36,891 nt of DNA from assembly GCA_016872215.1 (NCBI GenBank), contig VHAX01000023.1, positions 1 to 36,891 on the forward strand, written 5' to 3'. Under the pieces are notes generated by a model. The model searched no databases, had not been told where the DNA came from, and was given only the letters and a program-made list of their open reading frames with translations. The position numbers were made by a program, and so were the translations under genes. Origin of the DNA: Sphingomonadales bacterium (GTDB lineage Bacteria; Bacteroidota; Bacteroidia; UBA7662). This document shows, piece by piece, positions 1 to 15,818 of this stretch (position 1 is the first letter of the stretch; the number at the start of each line of letters is the position of its first letter).

Positions 1-486
1 AACGGACAGATCTACAGCCAAAGCGGCACCTACACGTCAGTTAATGGCTGCCATACCGAGACGCTGGTCTTGACGATCACGCCATCAACGTCAAACACAA
101 CGCAGGCATCAGCATGCGACAGCTACATCTGGAGCGTAAACGGACAGAGCTACAGCCAAAGCGGCACCTACACGTCAGTTAATGGCTGCCACACCGAGAG
201 GCTGATATTGACGATCACGCCATCAACGTCAAACACAACGCAGGCATCAGCATGCGACAGCTACATCTGGAGCGTAAACGGACAGAGCTACAGCCAAAGC
301 GGCACCTACACGTCTGTTAATGGCTGCCATACCGAGACGCTGGTCTTGACGATCACGCCATCAACGTCAAACACGACGCAGGCATCAGCATGCGACAGCT
401 ACACCTGGAGCGTAAACGGACAGAGCTACAGCCAAAGCGGTACCTACACGTCTGTGAATGGCTGCAACACTGAGATGTTGATTCTT
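1..486 (+). repeat. 138-bp coding tandem repeat, about 3.5 copies
   Basis: Copies begin at 73, 211 and 349, each exactly 138 bp (46 codons), and a partial copy fills 1-72. The copies at 73 and 211 differ at only a few bases near their 3' ends; the copy at 349 is slightly more diverged. Each encodes a unit with ACDSYxWSVNGQ, SQSGTYTSVNGC and a TITPSTSN lead. Conservation at the DNA level, including third codon positions, suggests recent duplication or gene conversion. The array continues beyond the left edge, so its copy number is unknown. Confidence 0.97.
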
Positions 487-3400
487 ACAATCAATCCAGG
501 TCCTTCATTTCAGGTTGCGATTAACGGCATGAATTATGGAGCGGTATCAGGCGGCAATAGCGTTACAGCCAATACATTAACCAGCTACAATATTGAGTTG
601 TCGTCGGTTCTCTCCGGACGTCTACCGTTTGTAGGCAGTATTCGTGTTTGGGATGGTTTCATTGGCACGGGCACGGCTGGTTCCGTCTTTGTTGACACGA
701 TCAACAGTGTGGGTGACCTGATTTATTCAGCTCCCGCGGGTAGTGTTCAGCCTGGTATATGGAGCGTGGAGTTTTTATCTGTTGTCGATGCCAATGGTTG
801 TGTTGCTAATCTTTCCAATTCACAATATAACTTCACATTTTATGTGTCTAATCCCAATGTAGTTGCCGTAAATGCGCAGGTTTGTGCACCATCGGGATAC
901 AATTTCAATGGGGTGAACCTTTTTGTAAGTGGTACATATACCGACACCTTAACCAGTTCTTTGGGTGTTGATAGTTTTGTTACGTTGAACTTAATTGTAA
1001 ATCAGCCTAGCTCGACGGCACTAACTGCGACAATTTGTGAGCCTGCTAGTTATTATTTTAATGGTCAAGTCATTACTGTAGGTGGTATCTATACCTCTAC
1101 CCTAACCAATGCCGCGGGTTGTGACAGTGTAATCACATTAAATCTAACGGTTAATCCCAGACCTGTTTTCTCAGTGGCACTCAATGGAGTCTTATACTCG
1201 CCGCAGCAAGGAGGTCATTCGCTCAACGTGTGCTCCAACGAGAATTTTGTATTTACCCTCGGTGGCGTACAGGCTGGAATGGTGCCTCTAATTGGCACAT
1301 TACGTGTTTGGGACGGCCAGATTGGTTCCGGAACACCTGGCTTGTTATTTACAGATACCATTTTCGCTTTAGGTGATGTCATATACTCTGCACCTTTTGG
1401 CAGTGTTAATCCCGGCATATGGAGTGTAGAGTTTATTTCTGTTGTGGATGGCAATGGCTGTGAGGCGGATCTGTCTAATGGAGGAATGAATTTCACATTT
1501 ACAGTCTCTGATCCGAGTGAAACGACCATTAACGCGTTGATTTGTTCACCTGCTACGTATTCCTTCGATGGACAGGCGTTAAGTACCTCGGGAACGTATA
1601 CAGCAATATTTATTAATGCAGGGGGCTGTGACAGCGTGGTTACTTTGAACTTGTCGGTCGGCACGCCTAGCCCAGCAACAAGCCTTACCGACACGATATG
1701 CGGTCCGAATACTATTACCGTTGGGGGACAAACATTTGGTTCAACAGGTAATTATACCATTACCCTAACGAATGCATCGGGTTGTGATAGTGTGATCAAC
1801 CTGACCCTTGTGGCTACTCTAGGCGTGACTCAGATCACAAGCCAACCAAGCTCAGTTTATGCAGAGCAAGGAACAGTTGTTCATCTTCCGCTCGGTGTTC
1901 AAGATGCCTTAGCTATTCACTGGCAGAGCAGCAATGACGGGTTGGTGTGGGCGAATCTGACAGACGGGACAATCTACTCAGGCGCACTTTCCTCGAATTT
2001 AAGCATCAATACAGGTGCAGCTTTGAGCCACACCCAGTACCGCGCGGTCGTTGTGGGTTGTCAGGGTCAAATGGTCTCGAACGCCGCCTCCCTGATACTT
2101 TATCCTTCAGCCGCCCCCATTGCATTAAGTATAGCAAATGCTACCGGATGCCCGGGTCAGGAAGTAATGGTGCCAATATTAGCCTCAAACTTCTCAAATG
2201 TTGGTAGGATTCAGTTGGATTTGAGCTACAACGTTTCAATTCTACAACTATTGAATTTCCAGACAGGAGCAGGTATCAGCGGTATTCAGATAACTCCGAC
2301 TTCTGGGGGGATTTCAATCCGTCGTAATCTGACCATACCTGCATCGCTGATTAACGATACCTTATTAAAATTGAATTTTGTTGCCTTTGGAAGTGGCCAA
2401 ACCAATATTCAATGGGTGCCCTCAGCTTCAGGTGTAGTGGGAATTGAAACGGCTTACCCGGGCAATTTGGTGCACAGGCTTTCTTACCAGAATGGTAGTG
2501 TCACTATTGGTGGTGTAACTCCAGTTATAACGCAACAGCCGATTAACATAACAGTATTGGACGGCGCGTCTGCCACTTTCTCAGTTGTTGCTACTAATGC
2601 GGCGGCTTATCAATGGCAGATTTTGCAAGCGGGCGGTTGGGTGAATCTGACCAATCAAAGCCCATATCAAGGGGTTCAGGCTGCTCAATTGACTATTTCG
2701 CCTGCAACTGGTGCACTCCACAATCGTAGGTTTAGGGTTATTGTTGATGGAGCTTGTCCCCCGTCTGTAACCTCCAATGAGGCGGTATTGAATGTTACAT
2801 CGGTTGCCGCACCTATTGTTTTGAGTATTGAAAATCGTACGGTTTGTTCACCCGGCAACTATAGCCTTTCTGTAGCTGCAAGTCACTTCATTGAGGTGAA
2901 CGCCTTGGATTTCTCTATGTCTTACAATTCATCTGCAATGGTGTTCACAGGGATCAGTTCTGCACATTCATCCCTACAAGGTATTACCGCCTATGTGAAC
3001 CAGTCAGGGGCGATATCAATCAGTTGGTTCGGTCTAACTCCATCCAACCTGGGATCAGGGGAGCTGTTCAAGCTCAATTTTGTGGTGAATGCTGGGGGGT
3101 CAGTGTCATGGAACTCATCAGTACCCGGTTTGACAAGTCTAGTCAATCAGTTCGGTCAAAACTTGCCTTTGCAGTTAAACAATGGGGGTGTTATAGTTCG
3201 AAGTTCATTCATTCAGATTAGTGGTTTGGGTAATGTTTGTATTAATTCAGCACCTGTTGCCCTTTCGGTCAATATAGGTGGTGGCGTATTCTCAGGTGCT
3301 GGTGTTGTTGGCGGAGTATTTTATCCCGCTTTGGCTGGCCTGGGTACCAATGCAATCAGTTACACGGTCACGGATAGTTTTGGATGTACCAATACCGCGA

Positions 3401-5733
3401 CAGTGTTCGTAACGGTTCAACCAGCTCCTTCAAGTACTGGTGGGGGAGCAGTAACGATTTGTCCGGGTTCTACTGCGACGCTAACGGGTGCTGGAACTGG
3501 AATTGTATCGTACCTGTGGAGCACGGGTGCAACTACTCAATCCATTAATGTTCAGCCGCAGAATAACTCGGTGTATTGGGTTACATTAACAAACGCAGCA
3601 GGGTGCAGCGTTACCGACACATTCCGTGTAAATACATTTGCTGAAACACCCGTGAACGCCGGAGCTGATCGCACTATTTGTCAGGGTTTCGGAACGCAAT
3701 TGAGTGCGAGTGGCGCAGTACAATACGTATGGTACACTCTTGGATCGCAACAGGCATTTGCGTTCACCTCCAATCCATTTGTGTTGCCGTCTGTAACAAC
3801 AACTTACTTGGTTACAGGCGTTAGCGTCAACGGTTGTATTTCCCGCGATACCGTTGTTGTTTTGGTTAATGCCCGGCCAAATGCTGCTGTGAGTGACGAT
3901 ACGGTAATCTATTGTGGTTCAGGGGTTGGAGCACAACTCGAGGCCTCCGGTGGTGTAACCTATCAATGGAGTCCCGCTACAGGTTTGAACAATCCAAATT
4001 CGGCAACGCCTGTTGCGTCACCAACAGTAACTACGCTGTATCTGGTCACCGTTACGAACGCAAACGGATGTTCGGATGTGAAATCGGTTTTGGTATTGGT
4101 TCCAACAGTATCAGCAGGTAGCAACCGCACGATTTGTTCGGGTACAAGTACACAGTTGAACGCTACGTATAATGGCTCTGCGTTGAGCTATCAGTGGATT
4201 CCGTCGACCGGTCTGAGCAACGCATTCATTTCGAATCCGGTGGCTTCACCCACATCCTCAGTTATTTATACGGTTCGCGTATCGGATGCATCCGGCTGTC
4301 AGGTTACAGCCCAGGTCCGTGTGATTGTGAATCTGAGCCCGATGGTGAATGCGGGAGCGGATGTATCAATTGCGCCCAACGCCTCGACGACCCTCAATGG
4401 ATTTGTTTCGGGCGCGAGTAGTTACTTGTGGTCGCCTTCTGCGGGTTTGAGCAATCCTGCGATTCTGAACCCGGTGTCTAGTCCAATGGTCACAACTGCG
4501 TACATCCTCACGGCAACTGGCTCGAATGGTTGTTCTCGCTCGGATACGGTTGTCGTGACTGTCGACCCCAATCTATCGGGTGGAACACTCAGTGGCCGGG
4601 TGGTATATGACCGTATTGGTAGCGCTGTTCGTACACCGGTATCGTCTGGGGCTGTAATTCTTTCGGGCAATGCTGTTGCCACCACGAATATTGCAGCAGG
4701 TGGTTCCTATGCCTTCCCCGGATTGTCCAATGGAGGTTATCAGGTTCGCGCTGATGTTGGAATGGCTCCGGGTGGAATCACCACGGCAGATGCGTTCCTA
4801 ATCAATAATTACATGAGTAATCCTGGAGCTCTATCCGGTTTGGCGGTACAGGCGGCCGATGCAAATGGTGACGGAATCGTGAATAGCGCAGACGCCTTAT
4901 TGGTACTCCAGCGGAGCATTAACCTGCCAACCGCCGTGTTCGCTACTCCATGGGTGTCGGAAAATGCTGCTATTACAATAAACAATTCAAATTCAGTTCG
5001 AGATGTGGCTGTTTTGAGTCGCGGCGACGTGAACCGTGACTATTCCTTCAGTACCCGTCTAATCCGTGGAATTCAAGCGGAGGTGGGCGCAGCAATCGCT
5101 TCTGACAAGCCGGTACATGTGTTGCCCATACAAGCAACTAGCCAAACGGTACTGGGGTCGTTCCAGATGCATGTGGAATTAGCTGGCGGACTACATGTAC
5201 GCAGCATTCGAATGTCTAAGACTGGCGAGACGGTGTTGTTCAATCAAACTGCCAACCAGCTCTATTTGGGGTGGTATGCTACGGGCGGAGCCTACACAGC
5301 CGCTGAGGGTGCCGATTTGTTTGAGGTAGATTTTGAGCAGGATATTCGGGGTATTGAAGTGGTGATGACGGTGGTTGGATTCTCACAAGCGACCGATTAT
5401 GAGGCAAATCCATATTCAATGCTCCGTTTGCAGATGCCCGCCTATGTTGAGTCGAGTGGCTTGACTTTGGAAGTGAGCAACTTCCCGAATCCATTCTCTA
5501 CCTCTACCGAGGTCATCTATAAACTGCCTGAGGATGGTTCGGTGCAAATACTGATTACCGATTACACAGGCAAGTCAATCTATCAGACAGAAAAAATGTC
5601 AAAGCTCTCCGGCAAGCATAGCATGCAATGGAATGCAGGCGATGTAGCTGATGGGGTGTATATGTTGCATGTACGTTTCGACGGCATTGTGGGTATTCAG
5701 TCAAAATCCACGAAGCTGATGATTCGTCGCTAG
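1..5733 (+). CDS. Giant multidomain secreted protein with T9SS sorting domain (5' end outside window)
   Basis: The frame is open from base 1 to the stop at 5731-5733, so the start lies to the left and at least 1910 residues are visible. In order: 46-residue Cys repeats (1-486); two long beta modules (about 496-870 and 1156-1515) interleaved with short repeats ending in a GCDSV-type motif; an Ig-like plus cohesin-like pair (1825-2512) and a second pair (2521-3200); several PKD/CHU_C-like modules (3420-4570); a carboxypeptidase-regulatory-like domain (4585-4850); a dockerin-like segment with DANGDGIVNSAD at about 4858-4893 and a weaker GDVNRD at about 5026; a further beta domain; and a type A T9SS sorting domain (about 5450-5733) with NFPNPF and GVYMLHVRF. 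It is therefore inferred to cross the outer membrane by T9SS and sit on, or leave, the cell surface. Adhesion or scaffolding is plausible but not shown. No catalytic domain was recognised. A paralog follows. Confidence 0.9.
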   Translation, partial: NGQIYSQSGTYTSVNGCHTETLVLTITPSTSNTTQASACDSYIWSVNGQSYSQSGTYTSVNGCHTERLILTITPSTSNTTQASACDSYIWSVNGQSYSQSGTYTSVNGCHTETLVLTITPSTSNTTQASACDSYTWSVNGQSYSQSGTYTSVNGCNTEMLILTINPGPSFQVAINGMNYGAVSGGNSVTANTLTSYNIELSSVLSGRLPFVGSIRVWDGFIGTGTAGSVFVDTINSVGDLIYSAPAGSVQPGIWSVEFLSVVDANGCVANLSNSQYNFTFYVSNPNVVAVNAQVCAPSGYNFNGVNLFVSGTYTDTLTSSLGVDSFVTLNLIVNQPSSTALTATICEPASYYFNGQVITVGGIYTSTLTNAAGCDSVITLNLTVNPRPVFSVALNGVLYSPQQGGHSLNVCSNENFVFTLGGVQAGMVPLIGTLRVWDGQIGSGTPGLLFTDTIFALGDVIYSAPFGSVNPGIWSVEFISVVDGNGCEADLSNGGMNFTFTVSDPSETTINALICSPATYSFDGQALSTSGTYTAIFINAGGCDSVVTLNLSVGTPSPATSLTDTICGPNTITVGGQTFGSTGNYTITLTNASGCDSVINLTLVATLGVTQITSQPSSVYAEQGTVVHLPLGVQDALAIHWQSSNDGLVWANLTDGTIYSGALSSNLSINTGAALSHTQYRAVVVGCQGQMVSNAASLILYPSAAPIALSIANATGCPGQEVMVPILASNFSNVGRIQLDLSYNVSILQLLNFQTGAGISGIQITPTSGGISIRRNLTIPASLINDTLLKLNFVAFGSGQTNIQWVPSASGVVGIETAYPGNLVHRLSYQNGSVTIGGVTPVITQQPINITVLDGASATFSVVATNAAAYQWQILQAGGWVNLTNQSPYQGVQAAQLTISPATGALHNRRFRVIVDGACPPSVTSNEAVLNVTSVAAPIVLSIENRTVCSPGNYSLSVAASHFIEVNALDFSMSYNSSAMVFTGISSAHSSLQGITAYVNQSGAISISWFGLTPSNLGSGELFKLNFVVNAGGSVSWNSSVPGLTSLVNQFGQNLPLQLNNGGVIVRSSFIQISGLGNVCINSAPVALSVNIGGGVFSGAGVVGGVFYPALAGLGTNAISYTVTDSFGCTNTATVFVTVQPAPSSTGGGAVTICPGSTATLTGAGTGIVSYLWSTGATTQSINVQPQNNSVYWVTLTNAAGCSVTDTFRVNTFAETPVNAGADRTICQGFGTQLSASGAVQYVWYTLGSQQAFAFTSNPFVLPSVTTTYLVTGVSVNGCISRDTVVVLVNARPNAAVSDDTVIYCGSGVGAQLEASGGVTYQWSPATGLNNPNSATPVASPTVTTLYLVTVTNANGCSDVKSVLVLVPTVSAGSNRTICSGTSTQLNATYNGSALSYQWIPSTGLSNAFISNPVASPTSSVIYTVRVSDASGCQVTAQVRVIVNLSPMVNAGADVSIAPNASTTLNGFVSGASSYLWSPSAGLSNPAILNPVSSPMVTTAYILTATGSNGCSRSDTVVVTVDPNLSGGTLSGRVVYDRIGSAVRTPVSSGAVILSGNAVATTNIAAGGSYAFPGLSNGGYQVRADVGMAPGGITTADAFLINNYMSNPGALSGLAVQAADANGDGIVNSADALLVLQRSINLPTAVFATPWVSENAAITINNSNSVRDVAVLSRGDVNRDYSFSTRLIRGIQAEVGAAIASDKPVHVLPIQATSQTVLGSFQMHVELAGGLHVRSIRMSKTGETVLFNQTANQLYLGWYATGGAYTAAEGADLFEVDFEQDIRGIEVVMTVVGFSQATDYEANPYSMLRLQMPAYVESSGLTLEVSNFPNPFSTSTEVIYKLPEDGSVQILITDYTGKSIYQTEKMSKLSGKHSMQWNAGDVADGVYMLHVRFDGIVGIQSKSTKLMIRR

Positions 5734-5754: not shown

Positions 5755-8700
5755 ATGTTTCGATACCGTCCCCTTAACGTAGAGGCGCATTATGGTGCGC
5801 CTCTACGTATTTTTACTCTAATTCTGCTAACGTGTTTACTCTTTACAAAAGCGGGTTTTTCAACATTCGGAGGTTTCGGGCCTCCATGTAGGGTAGACAC
5901 AACGATATATTACGGGTGGTGCATTGGTGATACCCTGCAAGTAGGCGGTCTTAACTATTCCACGCCCGGAGTTTATGCTCAGTTTTTGCAGACAGCCTTG
6001 GGGTGCGATAGTGTAGTGAACCTACAAATCCACCCAAGACCGGACACCCCGATTATTGGTCAGCATCCTTCAAGTATTTACATCGGTGCGGGTGACACAG
6101 GATCATTCCTGGCATCGGCCTCACCAGCATCGGATTGTCGCTGGCAAACCAGAACGGGCACGGGTGTCTGGATGAATGTTCGGGCTGATTCGATTCATTC
6201 CTCTCCTTTTTTGTCTCATTTAAGTGTTGTAGCAACTGGGGGAAGCAACAACGCTGTTTACCGATACTACTGCCAGGGATGTATGGTTGATGCAGTGAGC
6301 GATTCAGCCGAATTATGGGTTTACCCCCAACAGCCGCCCGTAGTAGTTCAATTGCCTACAGTTGAATCCTGTGTCGGAGAAAATACCCCTATTGCAGTAC
6401 GTGTCAATTCCTGGCAACATGTTGGGCGTATTTCTTTGGACGTCATTCTGCCCACATCTTCTTTGCAATTGATTCAGTGGAGTGCACGCGTATCGGGTTT
6501 GTCGCTCTCGGTTCAGGGTGATACAGTCAAAATTCGTAAGGCAACGACAGTATCCTCCATCCTCACACTAGGTGATACCTTGCTCGTATTGGTGGTCCGC
6601 CCTTTATTTACAGGTACTTTTCCACTGACCTGGCTTGTTCCGGATAGCGGAACAGTGGGGTTACAGTACATAGATCCGAACAGTAGCTGGGTTCACAGGC
6701 TGGTACCAGTGAACGGACATGTTTTTGTGCCTTCTTTGGCTGCTCAGGTGGTTCAGGAGCCGATGTCCGTTTCGGTCCGATCGGGGGATTCTGTTTTGTT
6801 CTTGGCGGCATGCGTGAACGCCATCGGCTATCGCTGGCAAATCCGGGTCGGTTCATCATGGCGGAGTCTCGTCGAAACGAACGCTTACAGAGGTACACAA
6901 ACCGCCATGTTGTACATGGATGCAGCACCCGACAGCTTAAACAACGCCCGTTTTCGTTTAATTGCTTTTGGATCATGCGGGCGGAATGATACATCGCAAA
7001 CAGTCGACCTGCGGGTGGAATCGAGTTCACCTGCCATCCGAATGACTTTGCCGCAAGTATTGGCATGCACCACCGGACAGTATTCTCTATCGCTGAATGT
7101 TGAATCGTTCAACCAAGTTTCAGCTTTTTCGCTTCGGTTTACCTACCACCCCGATAGCATTCAATATATGGTGACTGAATACACCCATCCAGCGCTGGGA
7201 ACCGGTTATCAGCTCCTGCACCAATCGGGTGGGCTAACACTGAATTGGTACGGGACACAGCCCCTGCAGTTGGGTGCTGCGGAGTTGTTGAGGCTCAGGT
7301 TTCAGATAGCGGGAAGCTCTCAATTGCAGTGGGATACCTCCGCACAGGGCCCCATGTTGTGGACACCCTACCAACAGATGCTTCAAACTGCAGCCCAGGA
7401 CGGTTGGGTACGGGCAGGCTCCTTATCCGCAGTGGTCGACCCCATACCCTGTTTGTTTATTGGGGATGCCCCGGTCGCTTTGAGCGCCTGGCCACCCGGC
7501 GGAACCTTCAGCGGGGTCGGGGTCCAGAGCCAAGTTCTGTATGTCGACACATCACCCGGAGTCAGAACCGTGCATTATCAGGCCGTGTACCAGGGCTGTC
7601 CATATGGGGGACAATACACCTATGAGGTATGGCCCGCCCCGAGTCTGCAGTGGAACAATACCCGCGATGTTTGTAGAGGTACACCCATCACGCTTACGGC
7701 CCTTAGATTATCCAACAACGTTTGGAGTACGGGCGACACCAGCGCAATGGTCACTCTCCATCCGATAACCGACACCCTGGTTTGGGTTCGCTACACATCA
7801 CCCACAGGATGCATACGAATAGATTCTGTGCGTTTAGAAGTACGTCCCGGGCCAAATGCGACGGTTGATGACTCTGTTTATTATTATCACAACAATACTA
7901 CCCCCGTTCTGCTTAGAGCCGCGGGAGGGGTCAGCTATCTTTGGCAGCCATCGTCGGGACTTTCCGACAGCACTTCAGCGGCACCCTTGGCCATGCCCGA
8001 CACGACAACTACATACACGGTTACGGTTATGGATTCTTTTGGATGCAGCCGTACGTTGCGTGTTGTTGTTCTGCATCCGCGCATCAACCCGATGCCCAAC
8101 CGGGTTTTGTGCAGGGGCGATAGCCTTACCCTAGATGCACCTGTTCTCTATACCCATCAACCCACAAGCGGACCCCCTCCAACATTAACCCCTCCAATAC
8201 CCACCTATTTGTGGCAACCCGCTGCCGGACTCGATGATCCCTACAGCCCGAACCCTAAGGCATCACCGGGCAGCACCACGCTCTACCAAGTACGGGTTAT
8301 TGTGGCCCAAAATTGCACCCTCACAGCCCATAGAGGGGTAATCGTGCTCGCCCCTCCCCAAGTCGAGATTGGTCACGACAGTATCTACACCTCAATCGGA
8401 CATCCGGTGCGGCTTCAGGCCCACATCTGGGACACGACACAGCCCGTTCAATACCAATGGACGCCCGCCACCGGGCTATCCGACAGCACACAACAGCAGC
8501 CATTTGCGAACCCGATGTCCACCACAAACTACAAGCTAACCGTGCGTTCCGCCAACGGTTGTATCTCCTCGGATTCAGTGGTTGTTGTGGTATCGCAAGT
8601 GGGACTAGGCGCTGTGTTGCAGGGCCAGTTGATCTATGACAATTCCAGCCAAACCCCATTGCGGGAGGGAACCGTGACCCTGATGCCGATTCTCCCTCAT

Positions 8701-8772
8701 CAACCTTTTTATAATAACCCTAATCGTCCCCACTCCAAAAAGAGATCTGGCAGAATATCCAAGAAAAAATAA
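5755..8772 (+). CDS. C-terminally truncated paralog of the preceding T9SS multidomain protein
   Basis: This 1005-residue product has a hydrophobic signal segment (residues about 19-36, LRIFTLILLTCLLF). Then come one Cys-containing short repeat (about 5880-6030), Ig-like plus cohesin-like (6040-6730), a second Ig-like plus cohesin-like pair (6740-7430), and PKD/CHU_C-like modules (7650-8600). Domain order and wording follow the upstream protein closely, for example VGLxY followed by WVHRL, and LSDSTSAAPLAMP-type modules. The match ends a few residues into the carboxypeptidase-regulatory-like domain (GQLIYD, near 8630). After that comes an unrelated basic tail ending SKKK. The dockerin-like region and T9SS tail are missing, so the product may be stuck in the periplasm. 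The only usable ATG, at 5755, places a terminator hairpin inside the gene. It may be a decaying duplicate. Confidence 0.75.
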   Translation: MFRYRPLNVEAHYGAPLRIFTLILLTCLLFTKAGFSTFGGFGPPCRVDTTIYYGWCIGDTLQVGGLNYSTPGVYAQFLQTALGCDSVVNLQIHPRPDTPIIGQHPSSIYIGAGDTGSFLASASPASDCRWQTRTGTGVWMNVRADSIHSSPFLSHLSVVATGGSNNAVYRYYCQGCMVDAVSDSAELWVYPQQPPVVVQLPTVESCVGENTPIAVRVNSWQHVGRISLDVILPTSSLQLIQWSARVSGLSLSVQGDTVKIRKATTVSSILTLGDTLLVLVVRPLFTGTFPLTWLVPDSGTVGLQYIDPNSSWVHRLVPVNGHVFVPSLAAQVVQEPMSVSVRSGDSVLFLAACVNAIGYRWQIRVGSSWRSLVETNAYRGTQTAMLYMDAAPDSLNNARFRLIAFGSCGRNDTSQTVDLRVESSSPAIRMTLPQVLACTTGQYSLSLNVESFNQVSAFSLRFTYHPDSIQYMVTEYTHPALGTGYQLLHQSGGLTLNWYGTQPLQLGAAELLRLRFQIAGSSQLQWDTSAQGPMLWTPYQQMLQTAAQDGWVRAGSLSAVVDPIPCLFIGDAPVALSAWPPGGTFSGVGVQSQVLYVDTSPGVRTVHYQAVYQGCPYGGQYTYEVWPAPSLQWNNTRDVCRGTPITLTALRLSNNVWSTGDTSAMVTLHPITDTLVWVRYTSPTGCIRIDSVRLEVRPGPNATVDDSVYYYHNNTTPVLLRAAGGVSYLWQPSSGLSDSTSAAPLAMPDTTTTYTVTVMDSFGCSRTLRVVVLHPRINPMPNRVLCRGDSLTLDAPVLYTHQPTSGPPPTLTPPIPTYLWQPAAGLDDPYSPNPKASPGSTTLYQVRVIVAQNCTLTAHRGVIVLAPPQVEIGHDSIYTSIGHPVRLQAHIWDTTQPVQYQWTPATGLSDSTQQQPFANPMSTTNYKLTVRSANGCISSDSVVVVVSQVGLGAVLQGQLIYDNSSQTPLREGTVTLMPILPHQPFYNNPNRPHSKKRSGRISKKK
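5777..5815 (+). terminator. Probable intrinsic terminator of the giant gene
   Basis: A perfect 13-bp inverted repeat (left arm 5777-5789, right arm 5796-5808) with a 6-base loop is followed directly by a T-rich run (5808-5814). It lies 43 bp after the stop of the first gene. It also lies inside the 5' end of the next reading frame, just before its hydrophobic signal segment. Confidence 0.75.
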
Positions 8773-8773
8773 G

Positions 8774-10069
8774 CTACGGCACAATCAACTGAATATCCAG
8801 CGCTGTGTCGTGGTCAAACACGAGGGCAGCGTCTTTCCACATCGGCCCGCGGAAAATAGGGCGGTAGTTGCGACTAAACCCATAGGGTTCCGTCGGGAAG
8901 CCGAAGGCCGATTTATCGAGTCGACCGTTTCGATCCAGATCCTGATAAACGGCAACTGCATAGGTCGCGGCTGGAACCAAGAACTTCCATCGCATCCAGG
9001 AACCTTCTGCCTTTAACGCAGTGTGGTGGAGCGGTCGGCCATCCGGAAATGAAGCGCGATCGAAAAGACCGATTACCAAATGCGAAGCGCTTGTAATATT
9101 TAGGCCGTCGACTTGAATCGTCAATTCAACCAGTCGATTCTGTGCCTTCAGATCCAAAGAATGCCCCCAACCCAAGAGCATGTAGGTCAACAGCAACAGT
9201 AATGAACGATAGGACCGCTTGTGGATGAGAAACGCGAGCCGAGGCATCAGGTAGCTAACCACCCAATTGATGTGCCCCAAAAACGAGGGAACCGATACCG
9301 ACTTTCGGTGGATCAGCTGGCGCAAAATACCGCGCGCGGTCGCCTCGCGACTGCGGGTAAAGATGCGTGGACGATCAGGTATAGGTTGGGGTAAACCCTT
9401 CGAGTCCAGAGCCCGTTTGTCGGGTTCGTTGGCCGTGTAGCCCAGATAGGTGAGACCCACAAATACTCCATGGTCGAGGTTTTCGAGTCGCAGGCTCTCG
9501 CTCAGTGGCGTGAGGGCAGCTTTGCTCAGGGCATAAAGACCATATTCGGGCATACCATAAAAGGCCGAAATACTCGATACAAATAGAACCCCACCCCGGC
9601 TGTTGCGCAGGGCGGGCAAAGCGGCGCGCGTCAGGTGGATGCATCCCTTCACATTTACATCGATCATTTGGTCGATTACCTGCTCGGATGCCGCATCGAT
9701 CCGGTCGAAGTTAAATACCGCCGCATTGTGGATGAGGTAATCGATACGGCCAAAGTGTTTAAGACCGGCCTCTACTGCAATCCTACAATCGTCGGGGCTC
9801 GAAACATCCCCGACAATGGTCAGCAAGCGACCACGAGTTTCGTCACCCGTGTCACCACAAATGTGCAGGGTAGCTTCTTCCAGTCGTCCCGCATTCCGGC
9901 CCGTGGCAATCACCATCCCGCCGCTGGTCCACACCTGCCGCGCCAGTTCCTTTCCGATGCCCAGGCTCGCACCGGAAATCAGCACCACTCGGCCACGGTA
10001 TGCATCTTGCCATGCCATCAACTGTAGAGCGGGTTGGTGAACAGATCGGTTGGAAGGGTTTGGACCCAT
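8774..10069 (-). CDS. Short-chain dehydrogenase fused to a DUF2141 domain
   Basis: This 431-residue protein has two parts. Residues about 26-285 are a classical SDR oxidoreductase: the nucleotide-binding turn SGASLGIG (32-39), HNAA (about 115), a catalytic Ser near 166 and YALSK (Tyr179, Lys183). Residues about 289-302 form one hydrophobic segment. Residues about 311-431 match DUF2141, with the signature VAVYQDLDRNGRLD and FPTEPYGFS. The hydrophobic segment looks like the signal peptide of a once separate DUF2141 protein, so the SDR would be cytoplasmic and DUF2141 periplasmic. Both activities' substrates are unknown. Met18 (base 10018) is an equally good start because the SDR fold begins just after it. 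The stop is 1 bp from the converging truncated paralog's stop. Confidence 0.85.
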   Translation of the reverse strand: MGPNPSNRSVHQPALQLMAWQDAYRGRVVLISGASLGIGKELARQVWTSGGMVIATGRNAGRLEEATLHICGDTGDETRGRLLTIVGDVSSPDDCRIAVEAGLKHFGRIDYLIHNAAVFNFDRIDAASEQVIDQMIDVNVKGCIHLTRAALPALRNSRGGVLFVSSISAFYGMPEYGLYALSKAALTPLSESLRLENLDHGVFVGLTYLGYTANEPDKRALDSKGLPQPIPDRPRIFTRSREATARGILRQLIHRKSVSVPSFLGHINWVVSYLMPRLAFLIHKRSYRSLLLLLTYMLLGWGHSLDLKAQNRLVELTIQVDGLNITSASHLVIGLFDRASFPDGRPLHHTALKAEGSWMRWKFLVPAATYAVAVYQDLDRNGRLDKSAFGFPTEPYGFSRNYRPIFRGPMWKDAALVFDHDTALDIQLIVP

Positions 10070-10245: not shown

Positions 10246-11598
10246 ATGAAAAAATCCACTGGCTTCTCGCGCCTGAGTCGTGACGAAAAAATCGATTTCA
10301 TTGCCCGTCGTCATTTTTCCCGGCCCGAAGAAGCTGCGCGGCTTCTGCACGCCTACCAGCATTCCGACCCCGATGTACAAAAACAGCACGATGAATTCAT
10401 CGAGAATAGCCTAACCAACTTCTACATGCCCTATGGCGTGGCCCCTAACTTCCTGATCAACGGCGTCAACTACACCATACCCATGGTGATCGAAGAAAGC
10501 TCAGTGGTTGCTGCGGCTGCGAAAAGCGCATCGTTTTGGTTCGATCGGGGCGGTTTTCACGCCCGGGTTTTGTCGACCCGAAAAATCGGTCATGTACATT
10601 TCCTGTGGAACGGCTGTGAGGCCGACCTCCGGGATAGGATGCCTGCCCTTGAAGGTCGATTGCGTGCGGCCACAGAAGGCCTAGGCGCCCAGATGAGAGT
10701 CCGTGGCGGAGGAATCACGGAACTGGAGCTCGTAGCAAAGCCGGAAATTGAACCGGGTTATTACCAGCTGAAAGCCAGCTTTGAAACCTGTGATGCCATG
10801 GGGGCCAATTTCATCAACAGCCACCTCGAATGCTTCGCCCGGGAATTGCGTTCCTTTGTGGAAGATGACCATTCGCTCCCCGAGGCGGACAGAAGCCTCA
10901 CCGTGGTCATGAGCATACTGAGCAACTACACACCCGAGTGTCTGGTGCGCGCCGAGGTCAGTTGTCCGGTTGAGGCTCTGGCCGATGGCGATGACTACAC
11001 CAACGAGCAGTTTTTGGCTAAATTTCTGCAAGCCATCCAAATCGCTCGTGAGGAGCCCTACCGCGCTGTCACCCACAACAAGGGAATCATGAATGGTATT
11101 GATGCAGTTGTGTTGGCAACGGGCAATGATTTCCGGGCGGTCGAGGCCTGTGCGCATGCCTATGCCGCACGCGATGGTCAATATCGCAGCCTTACCCAGG
11201 CCGAGGCAGTCGACGGACAATTCCGTTTTTGGCTCGACATTCCTCTTGCGTTGGGGACTGTGGGTGGACTTACCAGCCTGCATCCCCTGGTTCGCGCATC
11301 CCTCGAAATGCTCCAAAACCCCTATGCGGGTCGACTCATGGAAATCGTGGCCTGTGTGGGATTGGCGCAGAACTTTTCAGCGGTCAAATCGCTCGTCACT
11401 ACCGGCATCCAGAAGGGCCACATGAAAATGCACCTGCTCAACATCCTCAATCAGTTGGGTGCTACGGAGATGGAAAAGGAGCGGACCAAAACCTATTTCA
11501 ACGATAAGGTGATCAGCTTTCAGGCGGTCGGTGAGTACCTGAAAAAACTGCGTGGACAATCAGCCGTGCAGATATTGAGTCACATCCACCCCAACTGA
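10246..11598 (+). CDS. Hydroxymethylglutaryl-CoA reductase (class II-like)
   Basis: The product reduces HMG-CoA to mevalonate, the committed step of the mevalonate pathway. From the ATG at 10246 it has 450 residues. Visible landmarks are the catalytic Glu in VIEESSVVAAAAKSA (Glu83/84), DAMGAN (about 183-188, nicotinamide dinucleotide binding), catalytic Lys in HNKGIMNGI (about 279), catalytic Asp in ATGND (about 295) and catalytic His in QKGHMKMH (about 392). These match class II (Pseudomonas mevalonii-like) enzymes in length and spacing. The frame extends upstream to 10180, but those 22 residues look non-native and overlap a promoter-like box, so 10246 is preferred. It is the first gene of a five-gene operon. 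Cofactor choice (NADH or NADPH) cannot be read from the sequence. Confidence 0.93.
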   Translation: MKKSTGFSRLSRDEKIDFIARRHFSRPEEAARLLHAYQHSDPDVQKQHDEFIENSLTNFYMPYGVAPNFLINGVNYTIPMVIEESSVVAAAAKSASFWFDRGGFHARVLSTRKIGHVHFLWNGCEADLRDRMPALEGRLRAATEGLGAQMRVRGGGITELELVAKPEIEPGYYQLKASFETCDAMGANFINSHLECFARELRSFVEDDHSLPEADRSLTVVMSILSNYTPECLVRAEVSCPVEALADGDDYTNEQFLAKFLQAIQIAREEPYRAVTHNKGIMNGIDAVVLATGNDFRAVEACAHAYAARDGQYRSLTQAEAVDGQFRFWLDIPLALGTVGGLTSLHPLVRASLEMLQNPYAGRLMEIVACVGLAQNFSAVKSLVTTGIQKGHMKMHLLNILNQLGATEMEKERTKTYFNDKVISFQAVGEYLKKLRGQSAVQILSHIHPN

Positions 11599-11603
11599 AA
11601 CGA

Positions 11604-12785
11604 GTGGTCCGCGACTATCATGCCCGCGGTAAACTGCTTCTGACGGGAGAATATGTGGTGATGCAGGGCGCGCTCGCCTTGGCTTGTCCCACCCGTCGCG
11701 GACAATCCATGTACATAAGTACACACTGCCCCGGATGCATCCACTGGAAGGCGCTCACTCCCCGCGGGGAGGTCTGGTTGGAGGCTGAATGGACGTTGAA
11801 TGGGATGGAATTCAATGCAACACAAGGTTTCGGGCGCCAACCATTGGATAGCTCGGGGAGGATGCCTTTAAACTTAGTTGGGGTGACAAGGAAAGGTATG
11901 GAATCGTCCGTTGTACGTTTGGAAGAATGGATCACCAGGACCCTGTTTCTATCACGCAAAGCCAACCCCGACCGCTTCAATGAGGAAGTTGATCGAATTG
12001 AGGCCGAAGGTGTTTCGGTGGAAACATATCTGGAATTCGAGCGGGATTGGGGTTTGGGCAGCAGTAGCAGCCTGATTTCGCTGCTCGCCCAGTGGTGGGG
12101 TTGCCCGGCTATGGAACTGCATGCCTTAACACAAGGCGGAAGCGGCTATGATCAGGCTTGCGCCACCGCAGCCGGTCCCATCCACTACCAGCTAATGGGC
12201 GAAGGCTTTCAATCCTTCCCACATACAGGCTTCTCGACCGAAACTCAGTCCGACCCCAAGCCAGATACCCAGACCGACCTCTCGCCCGACATTCAGTCTG
12301 ACCTCCGTCCTTCAAACCGACCCATCCCGCAGCCCTGCCTGCGTCCCTGTATTCAATCAGTCGCGTTCCGACCCATCTTCCACGAGCATATATTGTTTGT
12401 GTATACCGGTATGAAACAGTCGACCGACCATTCCTTACGGAAGTATTTGTCACGCCCGCAATCACCAGAACCCGACGTGCTCGAGCTCTCAGAGTGTACC
12501 CGGCAGTTGACAGCTGCCGCCGATTTGAAGGAGTTTATGGAGATCATGCACAGGCATGAGAAGATCATATCCGATCTTTTGGGTTTCGAGCCGCTACAAA
12601 CGTCCCTTTTCTCCAGATTTCCCGGCCAAACCAAGTCGCTCGGCGCATGGGGGGGCGACTTCATCCTCGCGGCCACACCCGACCCGGATCAGGCGAAGAA
12701 ATTTTTAAAGAGCTCGGGTTATCCCGTACACTTTTCCTTTCACGATCTGTTGCTGTGTCCGGATTTTATCGAATCGACGCAATAA
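11604..12785 (+). CDS. GYDIA-family GHMP kinase
   Basis: A 393-residue GHMP-superfamily kinase that starts with GTG 5 bp after the HMG-CoA reductase stop; no ATG is available. It has the N-terminal GKLLLTGEYVVMQGALALA motif (9-27), the phosphate-binding GLGSSSS (150-156), GSGYDQACA (about 179-187, the family's name motif with Gln for Ile) and the C-terminal AWGGDFILAA. GYDIA proteins sit in mevalonate operons of Flavobacteriia, and no phosphomevalonate kinase is otherwise seen here. That missing step is therefore the natural inferred role, but it is unproven. Residues about 214-253 are a Pro/Asp-rich insertion containing three 8-residue repeats, which I do not expect in the family core. Confidence 0.85.
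   Translation: MVRDYHARGKLLLTGEYVVMQGALALACPTRRGQSMYISTHCPGCIHWKALTPRGEVWLEAEWTLNGMEFNATQGFGRQPLDSSGRMPLNLVGVTRKGMESSVVRLEEWITRTLFLSRKANPDRFNEEVDRIEAEGVSVETYLEFERDWGLGSSSSLISLLAQWWGCPAMELHALTQGGSGYDQACATAAGPIHYQLMGEGFQSFPHTGFSTETQSDPKPDTQTDLSPDIQSDLRPSNRPIPQPCLRPCIQSVAFRPIFHEHILFVYTGMKQSTDHSLRKYLSRPQSPEPDVLELSECTRQLTAAADLKEFMEIMHRHEKIISDLLGFEPLQTSLFSRFPGQTKSLGAWGGDFILAATPDPDQAKKFLKSSGYPVHFSFHDLLLCPDFIESTQ
12243..12314 (+). repeat. Three 24-bp degenerate coding repeats in the GHMP kinase gene
   Basis: Units at 12243-12266, 12267-12290 and 12291-12314 encode TQSDPKPD, TQTDLSPD and IQSDLRPS. A Pro/Cys-rich stretch follows to about 12360. The insert lies between the GYDQA motif and the C-terminal kinase lobe, so it should form a surface loop. 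Confidence 0.75.
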
Positions 12786-12802
12786 TACTCCATTGAAACC
12801 CG

Positions 12803-13987
12803 ATGAATTCTTCTACTTCGACCCCTTCTGGATCCACCCACATCGACCTATCCCCTGAAGCGGCCCTCGAACCACTTCAGGCACCCCTGAAGGAATTTCC
12901 GTACATCGAGGGTAGGGTGGCCTGGAAAGCACCCTCCAACATCGCACTCATCAAATACTGGGGGAAATACGGGCAACAAATGCCGTCCAACCCGTCGATC
13001 AGTTTCAGTTTGCGGACCTGTGTTTCCCAAACAGAAATGTTTTTTCAGCCCCGAAAGGGCGGGAGTGTGCACTTCACTCTGGGGGGGCAACCCAAAGAGG
13101 GTTTTGAGAACAGAATCGAGAAATTCCTGAACAGCGTTGTGGATTGGTATCCATGGCTGGCAGAATATGAACTGGACATACGGTCGAGCAACAGTTTCCC
13201 GCACAGCAGCGGCATCGCCTCCTCAGCATCGGGTTTCGCCGCCTTGGCGTTGTGCGTTCAGAGCGCCGACAGGCAGTTGCGCACGGCAATGGAAAATGAT
13301 GCAGCCCCTCACCGATCCAATCCTATGGAATACCTAAAAGATGCAACATTCTTGAGAAATGCATCCAACCTGGCGCGATTGGGATCAGGTTCGGGCTGCC
13401 GATCGGTCTACGGGGGATGGGTACTGTGGGGGGCGCATCCCGCCACCCCTGAGAGCCGTAATGAGTATGCCATTGCCTACAAATCGGATATTCACCCCGT
13501 TTTTGCCGATTATCGCGACACCATTCTGCTCATACACAAAGGGGCGAAGGAAACGGGGAGCACGGCCGGACATAAGCTTATGGAGGGTAATCCCTTTGCA
13601 GAAGCCCGCTATCGTCAGGCTGCCGACCGGATTCCCCGATTGCTGGGGATTTTGGCATCGGGCGATGTAGAGGAATTTGGCATTTTGGTAGAGTCGGAAG
13701 CCCTCACCCTACACGCCCTCATGATGGCCTCAGAGCCCTCTTTTATGTTGATGATGCCCAACACCCTGGCCGCTATTAGCGAAATACACGCGTTTCGCAA
13801 ACAAAATGGGGTTCCCGTGCATTATACACTGGATGCAGGCGCTAACCTGCATGTATTATACCCCGCGCAACACGAAACAGAAGTTATGTCACTCATTAAC
13901 AACAGCTTGATGCATTATTGCGAAAATCAGGCGTATATTTGTGATTCTGTGGGAACGGGACCCATACCACTAACCCCTTTAGCATGA
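12803..13987 (+). CDS. mvaD: Diphosphomevalonate decarboxylase
   Basis: It converts mevalonate 5-diphosphate to isopentenyl diphosphate using ATP, the last step of the classical mevalonate route. The 394-residue product has APSNIALIKYWGK (43-55), the phosphate loop SFPHSSGIASSASGFA (131-146), ARLGSGSGCRSVYGG (about 191-205) and the catalytic Asp in TLDAGANLH (Asp345). All of these are diagnostic. Some 40 residues precede the first motif, a somewhat long low-complexity N-terminus (STSTPSGST). The start at 12803 is 17 bp after the preceding stop. The gene end overlaps the mevalonate kinase start by 4 bp (ATGA), which supports translational coupling. Confidence 0.95.
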   Translation: MNSSTSTPSGSTHIDLSPEAALEPLQAPLKEFPYIEGRVAWKAPSNIALIKYWGKYGQQMPSNPSISFSLRTCVSQTEMFFQPRKGGSVHFTLGGQPKEGFENRIEKFLNSVVDWYPWLAEYELDIRSSNSFPHSSGIASSASGFAALALCVQSADRQLRTAMENDAAPHRSNPMEYLKDATFLRNASNLARLGSGSGCRSVYGGWVLWGAHPATPESRNEYAIAYKSDIHPVFADYRDTILLIHKGAKETGSTAGHKLMEGNPFAEARYRQAADRIPRLLGILASGDVEEFGILVESEALTLHALMMASEPSFMLMMPNTLAAISEIHAFRKQNGVPVHYTLDAGANLHVLYPAQHETEVMSLINNSLMHYCENQAYICDSVGTGPIPLTPLA

Positions 13988-14922
13988 TTAAAGACTCACT
14001 CTACTACGCCAAAATCTTGTTGTTTGGGGAATATGGCATTATAGAAGATGCGCAGGGTTTGTCCATTCCGTACGACGATTACAACGCACATTTTTCATTC
14101 GATCATCCGGAAAGCGAGACGGCACAAGACAGCAACCGCAAGCTGAAAGCCTACGCGGCACATCTGCACTCAATGCAGCAGGCAGGCGACCTTCACGTGT
14201 CGATTGATACCAATCGAATGCTGTCGGACCTTGCAAAAGGCATGCACTTCGATTCGAGCATCCCCCAAGGGTATGGTGTAGGCAGTTCAGGGGCTCTTGT
14301 GGCTGCAACCTATGCCCGCTATGCCACCAAGCCCATAAGGGCGGTAACCGATCATTCACTCGAGCAGTTGCAACAACTTAAATCTGAATTGGCGACATTG
14401 GAGTGCTATTTTCATGGACGCTCGTCGGGCATGGATCCTCTGATTTGCTATCTGCAGATTCCGATTCTGTTCAATGGAAAAAGAAATATGGGCACCGTAC
14501 AATTGCCACAGGAACAGGAGGGGGAAGGTACGATTTTTCTGTTGAATACGGGTGAAGCCGGGGAAACCCAACCTTTGGTGAACCTCTTTATGGATCGACT
14601 CAAACAAGATGGTTTTCGCCGGATGATTCGCACTGAGTTTAGAAAGTACAACAACGCCTGCATCAAGAGTTTCCTCAAAGGCGATGCGCAACCCCTATTC
14701 CGCAACCTGCGTAAATTATCGCAGTTGGCCCTCGACAATTTCAAACCGATGATTCCGGATCTTTTCCAGCATTTGTGGAAGCAGGGCATCGAAACGAAGG
14801 TCTATTACCTAAAACTTTGCGGTTCGGGCGGGGGCGGTTACATACTTGGTTTTACCCGAGATTATGAGCGGACGCGAACTTTGCTGCGCGGCTATGACCT
14901 CAAGGTGGTCTATCGATTCTGA
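13984..14922 (+). CDS. Mevalonate kinase (GHMP family)
   Basis: The 312-residue GHMP kinase phosphorylates mevalonate at C5. Motifs: AKILLFGEYGII (9-20), GYGVGSSGALVAA (96-108, ATP phosphate loop), LECYFHGRSSGMDP (140-152, with the acidic residues expected near the substrate) and LCGSGGGGYILGF (278-290, third GHMP motif). The start overlaps the mvaD stop by 4 bp, and the stop overlaps the prenyltransferase start by 1 bp. Specificity is assigned from motif style and operon context. A phosphomevalonate kinase activity cannot be excluded, since two GHMP kinases in this operon must share the two phosphorylation steps. Confidence 0.88.
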   Translation: MIKDSLYYAKILLFGEYGIIEDAQGLSIPYDDYNAHFSFDHPESETAQDSNRKLKAYAAHLHSMQQAGDLHVSIDTNRMLSDLAKGMHFDSSIPQGYGVGSSGALVAATYARYATKPIRAVTDHSLEQLQQLKSELATLECYFHGRSSGMDPLICYLQIPILFNGKRNMGTVQLPQEQEGEGTIFLLNTGEAGETQPLVNLFMDRLKQDGFRRMIRTEFRKYNNACIKSFLKGDAQPLFRNLRKLSQLALDNFKPMIPDLFQHLWKQGIETKVYYLKLCGSGGGGYILGFTRDYERTRTLLRGYDLKVVYRF

Positions 14923-15818
14923 TGGCTAGTTTGCTGATGCGGATTGGGAACGATTCCCGGCGACTGCAATTCGTGCGTTTTCTTGCTTTTTTATCACTCA
15001 TTCGGTGGTACAATCTGTTTCTGGTACTCATCGCCCAGTTCCTGGCCGCTCGCTTCGTATTAGTGGAACAGGCAGACGGCTGGAATTGGCTGCTCGACCG
15101 TGGTTTGTGGGGACTAGCACTGGCAGGGAGCCTTCTGCTTGCGGCGGGCTATGTCATCAATGCATTTTACGACATAGAAACCGACCTGGCCAACCGTCCC
15201 CAACAGGTTATCGTTGGCAGGGTCATCTCCAAAAAACATGCGCTGCAGGCATGGGTGGTGTTGAATGGAATGGGACTAACCCTAAGTGCAGGGTTATCGA
15301 CCCGCCTTTTGCTGTTTTACCTCCTCTTCAGCGGAGCCTTGTGGCTCTACTCGCACAAATTCTGCAAGTTTCCCTTAATGGGGGAAGTAGCAGCGGCTTT
15401 CCTGAGCATATCAGCTTTTTTCGCCATCTGCGTGCACTACCGATACGTGAACGCGGACTTGCTGATCCTCGCTACCCTATTCTGGATTCTGGTTTTAGCC
15501 CGGGAAATGGTTAAAAAGCTGATTAGCATGAAGGGCGACCTCGTGTATGGCTACAGAACCTTCCCTATCGAATACGGACTTAAAAAAACACGCAGCCTGC
15601 TCGTTTTGTTGCATCTTATGGCCCTTTTGCCTCTTTTGGCACTCGCCGTACTGAATCACACCCCATCCACCAATCTGTTTTCGGGATTGGTCGCCTCAGG
15701 GGTATTGGCATCCGCTTATTTATCTTTGAAGGCCGTTCGTTCGACAGACCATCGTCGGATCAACATAGCCCTGAAGATTGTTCTGTTAATGTGCATCTGC
15801 GGCATTGTTTTGATTTGA
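14922..15818 (+). CDS. UbiA-family prenyltransferase, possibly geranylgeranylglycerol-phosphate geranylgeranyltransferase-like
   Basis: A 298-residue membrane protein with about eight hydrophobic segments. It has the first UbiA aspartate motif NAFYDIETD (80-88) and a second polar cytoplasmic loop, REMVKKLISMKGDLVYGYRT (about 194-213). UbiA enzymes move a polyprenyl chain from its diphosphate onto an acceptor. Proteins of this type next to mvaD in Bacteroidota are usually named geranylgeranylglycerol-phosphate transferases, but the true acceptor is not visible. It overlaps the mevalonate kinase stop by one base (TGATG), making it the last gene of the isoprenoid operon and the likely user of the isoprenoid product. 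Confidence 0.85.
   Translation: MASLLMRIGNDSRRLQFVRFLAFLSLIRWYNLFLVLIAQFLAARFVLVEQADGWNWLLDRGLWGLALAGSLLLAAGYVINAFYDIETDLANRPQQVIVGRVISKKHALQAWVVLNGMGLTLSAGLSTRLLLFYLLFSGALWLYSHKFCKFPLMGEVAAAFLSISAFFAICVHYRYVNADLLILATLFWILVLAREMVKKLISMKGDLVYGYRTFPIEYGLKKTRSLLVLLHLMALLPLLALAVLNHTPSTNLFSGLVASGVLASAYLSLKAVRSTDHRRINIALKIVLLMCICGIVLI

Follow-up and report, generated by a model that had tools for sequence, protein, structure and literature searches.

Domains of the DUF2141 type are widespread in Bacteroidota, and we know of no function for them. In the stretch of DNA analysed here (36,891 nucleotides of contig VHAX01000023.1, referred to as the window), a single reading frame places such a domain behind a short-chain dehydrogenase/reductase (SDR). 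The locus raises the question whether the two halves belong to one genuine gene and, if so, how one chain could provide both a cytoplasmic oxidoreductase and a domain that is normally exported. Such a fusion could tie DUF2141 to oxidoreductase or lipid chemistry.

The reading frame and its domains

The minus-strand frame at 8774-10069 is open throughout its 431 codons, as a preliminary description had indicated in assigning the whole interval to the gene; the start, however, was probably set too far upstream. The orthologous frames of two related genomes (L061 and L062, see below) open just three codons ahead of the methionine equivalent to the ATG at 10018, and a TAA is met upstream in one of them when the alignment is extended beyond the start. 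Position 10018 rather than 10069 is therefore most likely the start, giving a protein that begins with MAWQDAYRG. Residue numbers for the SDR motifs, the segment between the domains, and the Ala292|Gln293 site are counted from 10018, and the Pfam positions below refer to the 431-codon frame (Table 1).

Table 1 Features of the fusion gene in the window, with the observations on which each assignment is based
Feature	Position	Strand	Basis
Whole fusion gene, 414 aa + stop, likely ATG at 10018	8774..10018	-	Open frame; Pfam domains; orthologues in L061 and L062
Complete classical SDR domain, residues 1-265	9224..10018	-	PF00106; Ser149-Tyr162-Lys166; tail aligns with C-termini of stand-alone SDRs
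Basic SDR end HKRSYRS, putatively doubling as signal-peptide n-region	9203..9223	-	Stand-alone SDRs end here; 15-residue tail 87-93% identical in the three fusions
Hydrophobic core and c-region of the putative internal signal peptide, residues 273-292	9143..9202	-	Hydropathy; 48-57% identity; aligns with leaders of stand-alone DUF2141 proteins
Predicted signal peptidase I Q-rule site Ala292/Gln293	9140..9145	-	Ala-Gln in all three fusions; Q-rule (PMC5837995)
DUF2141 domain	8774..9139	-	PF09912; alignment; dN/dS 0.10-0.16; motif DxNxNGxxD...GxPxExYGFS

That an intact SDR and a DUF2141 domain share one frame, as described earlier, is borne out by Pfam: the adh_short profile (PF00106) matches residues 27-214 with an E-value of 2e-37, above its curated cut-off, and the DUF2141 profile (PF09912) matches residues 318-421 with an E-value of 4e-18 and 65.7 bits (gathering cut-off, 24.4), spanning profile positions 1-107 of 112. 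The SDR half carries GASLGIG, NAAV, Asn122 within DVNVKG, Ser149, and Tyr162-x3-Lys166, that is, the glycine-rich cofactor loop and the catalytic Asn/Ser/Tyr/Lys of the classical family; GASLGIG, Asn122, Ser149, Tyr162, and Lys166 are identical across all three fusions known. Its nearest NCBIfam model, PRK06181 (NF004825), is reached with 161.4 bits, below the cut-off of 215 for an equivalog, and a substrate assignment is therefore not transferable to the fusion. Family motifs, catalytic Ser-Tyr-Lys, and length are shared with the SDRs of PRK06181 and PF00106, and the tail aligns to the very end of the stand-alone members, but the fusion chain runs on into a putative signal peptide and a second domain. 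The DUF2141 half, too, is complete: the NxNGxxD and GxPxExYGFS motifs conserved in the family align, and a leader stands in front. Members of the family are normally exported proteins of about 140 aa encoded on their own, whereas here the leader is internal and follows an SDR. No relative of this DUF2141 domain was found in the PDB by sequence. AlphaFold models from the three-sequence alignments were of low confidence (pLDDT 57 and 51) and suggest an all-beta DUF2141 domain, nothing else in them being usable.

Conservation of the fusion within the genus

Two separate species-level metagenome-assembled genomes (MAGs) of the same genus contain orthologous single-frame fusions, L061 (CAIVQI010000200.1) with 75-76% and L062 (SYHW01000068.1) with 73-78% protein identity. 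The gene context is alike in the three species, with a convergent gene for a large surface protein to one side and, to the other, HMG-CoA reductase and mevalonate-type genes in divergent orientation. Among the three fusions, pairwise dS values are about 0.8-1.5, so that synonymous sites are near saturation, and the corresponding dN/dS ratios are 0.08-0.10 for the SDR and 0.10-0.16 for the DUF2141 half; the SDR tail is under constraint equal to that of the SDR core. No stop codon or frameshift interrupts the fusion frame in any of the three species. The fusion is thus older than their divergence, and purifying selection acts on both halves.

These data bear directly on the suspicion that the frame combines two genes through an error of sequencing or assembly, or through a recent loss of a stop codon in one genome; loss of a stop had been offered in the preliminary description as an alternative to a functional fusion. 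The window does belong to a draft assembly of 53 contigs, and the architecture was not found outside the genus. An error is nevertheless refuted by the fact that three separately assembled species share the in-frame junction, and with identities of 73-78% and purifying selection across it we consider both an artefact and a recent accident to be ruled out for practical purposes. The fusion gene was not found in a fourth congener (G001), an absence that is uninformative because HMG-CoA reductase was not found there either.

Distribution and origin

Our search covered three overlapping samples, with 21 genomes at the order level, 395 at the class level, and 395 at the phylum level, and the SDR-DUF2141 fusion turned up only in the three members of this one genus. 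The class-level search is complete to an E-value of 1e-6; at the phylum level the absence holds among the matches listed, which reach an E-value of about 5e-32, and a fusion whose DUF2141 match scores weakly might therefore escape there. With this scope no further case appeared among several hundred Bacteroidota genomes, and the earlier impression of an uncommon architecture can be sharpened: within the genomes searched, SDR plus DUF2141 is a new domain architecture restricted to one genus. Elsewhere, DUF2141 is mostly encoded by open frames of about 130-270 codons, and of the longer frames that were inspected none proved to be an SDR fusion. An exported protein encoded at L159:149-1540 (-), choloylglycine-hydrolase-like as judged by eye, is likewise a larger protein that ends with a DUF2141 domain; unlike in the fusion, its leader is N-terminal and both domains are exported, with no change of compartment between them.

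The SDR halves of the fusions group as a single clade (100/100) in a maximum-likelihood tree, with stand-alone SDRs from the same order as their sister group (96/85), and these sister proteins stop within about 10 residues of the point where the hydrophobic core of the fusion starts. Tree and end points together make a single origin, in or before the ancestor of the genus, most likely. Judged by these alignments, a complete SDR was most likely joined in one event to a DUF2141 protein that carried its own leader. Two adjacent genes in place of the fusion, which had been named beforehand as an observation that would speak for joined genes, were not present in any of the relatives examined. The stand-alone SDR relatives in L005, L006, L007, and L010 adjoin a gene of about 330 aa resembling extended SDRs/epimerases, of which the genus with the fusion has only a distant homologue (26-27% identity), located elsewhere.

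The junction between the two domains

Between the domains lies a single hydrophobic segment (residues 272-290), as had been described; its position, earlier given as around 9160-9210, is corrected to 9143-9202, with the basic stretch before it at 9203-9223. The sequences around the predicted cut (slash) read HKRSYRS-LLLLLTYMLLGWGHSLDLKA/QNRLVELT in the window, HKRSYRS-ILWPLTVSLLGLGLPLSVQA/QDRAVELT in the first relative, and HQRSYRS-ILLLLICSLLPLGASLNLRA/Q, followed by a 16-residue Q-rich insert and DRSVELT, in the second. The core is short and has diverged (48-57% identity) with its hydrophobicity retained, and the Ala-Gln at its end is invariant. In Bacteroidetes, glutamine directly follows the cut in most substrates of signal peptidase I, the so-called Q-rule (PMC5837995). 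In an approximate count, 24% of N-terminal and 3-6% of internal hydrophobic segments are followed by AQ; four exported proteins encoded within the window have leaders ending with AQ, and a small residue followed by Gln is found in 21 of the 40 leaders of stand-alone DUF2141 proteins. The substrate pattern, consisting of a basic n-region, a core, and a small residue plus Gln, is matched at the sequence level in all three fusions, although at position -3 Leu (two fusions) or Val (one) is acceptable rather than ideal. The insert of L062 sits directly after A/Q, a position at which a mature protein with a free N-terminus would accommodate it. Signal peptidase I genes were found in all three fusion genomes. 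The invariant A/Q, the diverging core, the leader-like alignment, and the Q-rule counts argue for reading what had been called a membrane segment as an internal signal peptide with the SDR tail as its n-region; the predicted cleavage depends, as far as the Q-rule is concerned, on three related sequences.

A segment of this kind could instead be a permanent signal anchor, in which case cytoplasmic SDR and periplasmic DUF2141 would remain one type II membrane protein, the periplasmic domain, for example, binding or localising while the SDR acts. Conservation of the fusion and selection on both halves fit such a protein, and the 19-residue hydropathy maximum of L062 (2.08) would suffice for a permanent helix. 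The maxima of the other two species are 1.66 and, in the window, 1.27, the latter low for a permanent helix, and the core contains Pro/Gly; moreover, A/Q is conserved, and the segment aligns like the leaders of stand-alone DUF2141 proteins, which cover a similar hydropathy range (0.9-2.3). An uncleaved chain is thus the chief alternative, serious but somewhat doubtful, and cleavage at an internal signal peptide seems likelier than one chain spanning two compartments.

Cleavage of the long form would be unnecessary if a separate DUF2141 pre-protein arose from a start within the SDR frame, at ATG258 or GTG253. Both codons are common to the three species, and stand-alone SDRs have other residues at the methionine of ATG258; synonymous-site conservation, however, is not raised near the internal start, and the promoter motif TAnnTTTG is absent on that strand. 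With neither signature present, an internal start or promoter was dropped as improbable.

Proposed processing of the fusion protein

The reading that best explains the locus as a whole, to which we assign a probability of roughly 55%, combines an ancestral fusion with Sec insertion, a signal peptidase I cut at A/Q, a periplasmic DUF2141 domain, and a tail-anchored SDR. According to this model, an independent SDR gene would have fused once, in the ancestor of the genus, to a separate DUF2141 gene whose product had a signal peptide of its own. With loss of the SDR stop and the DUF2141 start, the basic C-terminal tail of the SDR would have been turned into a signal-peptide n-region. The product would be translated as one chain and inserted by Sec into the inner membrane in N-in/C-out orientation with the SDR on the cytoplasmic side, and type I signal peptidase would then cut at the conserved A/Q. 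DUF2141 would be released to the periplasm with an N-terminal glutamine, probably converted to pyroglutamate (a search covering the plant-type glutaminyl cyclase family found no member), and the SDR would stay attached to the membrane, with what is left of the signal peptide acting as a tail anchor. Both domains may therefore end up as separate proteins. Their joint function could lie in a fixed 1:1 synthesis or in retention at the membrane of an SDR that acts on a lipid- or isoprenoid-type substrate.

The FbcH protein of Bradyrhizobium is a precedent: one gene encodes a precursor of cytochrome b and cytochrome c1, and this precursor is split at an internal signal peptide, as has been demonstrated experimentally, to yield two proteins that are both part of one complex. 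The mechanism proposed for SDR-DUF2141 is the same, deduced here from sequence; the proteins are unrelated, and whereas the processing of FbcH is established, the cleavage of SDR-DUF2141 is a prediction. The more specific notion of a bacterial two-compartment polyprotein, from which a cytoplasmic SDR and an exported DUF2141 would arise in a fixed ratio once signal peptidase I had split them at an internal Q-rule site, and which would link DUF2141 to SDR chemistry, is put forward tentatively, at somewhat less than even odds. The junction offers a clean test case for the processing of an internal Q-rule signal peptide in Bacteroidota.

Genomic context and neighbouring genes

The fusion gene is divergent from genes for HMG-CoA reductase, diphosphomevalonate decarboxylase, a GHMP kinase, and a UbiA prenyltransferase. 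These belong to a compact mevalonate-type cluster at 10246-15818 (+), in which the genes overlap or nearly do so and which also includes a GHMP-like kinase without a Pfam match. DUF2141 genes have been found to adjoin the carotenoid gene crtG in Sphingomonadales (PMC5989583, PMC9241875). Together, these neighbourhoods give a hint of isoprenoid or lipid chemistry, but a faint one, because the neighbours of stand-alone DUF2141 genes are heterogeneous, SDRs are rare among them, and the site beside HMG-CoA reductase is specific to the genus among the relatives examined; in other genera of the family this site is occupied by another divergent gene, judged by eye to be thiamine-pyrophosphokinase-like. 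A genomic association between stand-alone SDR and DUF2141 genes was considered and discarded as too weak, an SDR lying within about 7 kb at 3 of 40 DUF2141 loci.

On its other side, the fusion gene meets the convergent gene at 5755-8772 (+), whose stop is 1 base from that of the fusion. Its 1005-aa product is a paralogue (29% identity) of residues 544-1531 of the 1887-aa surface protein encoded at 70-5733 (+) and ends just ahead of the point where, in the surface protein, the dockerin-like and T9SS sorting regions follow. A comparable truncated end of the convergent surface-protein gene is found in L061 and L062, and the 3' end of the gene at 5755-8772 may have been lost when the fusion gene arrived.
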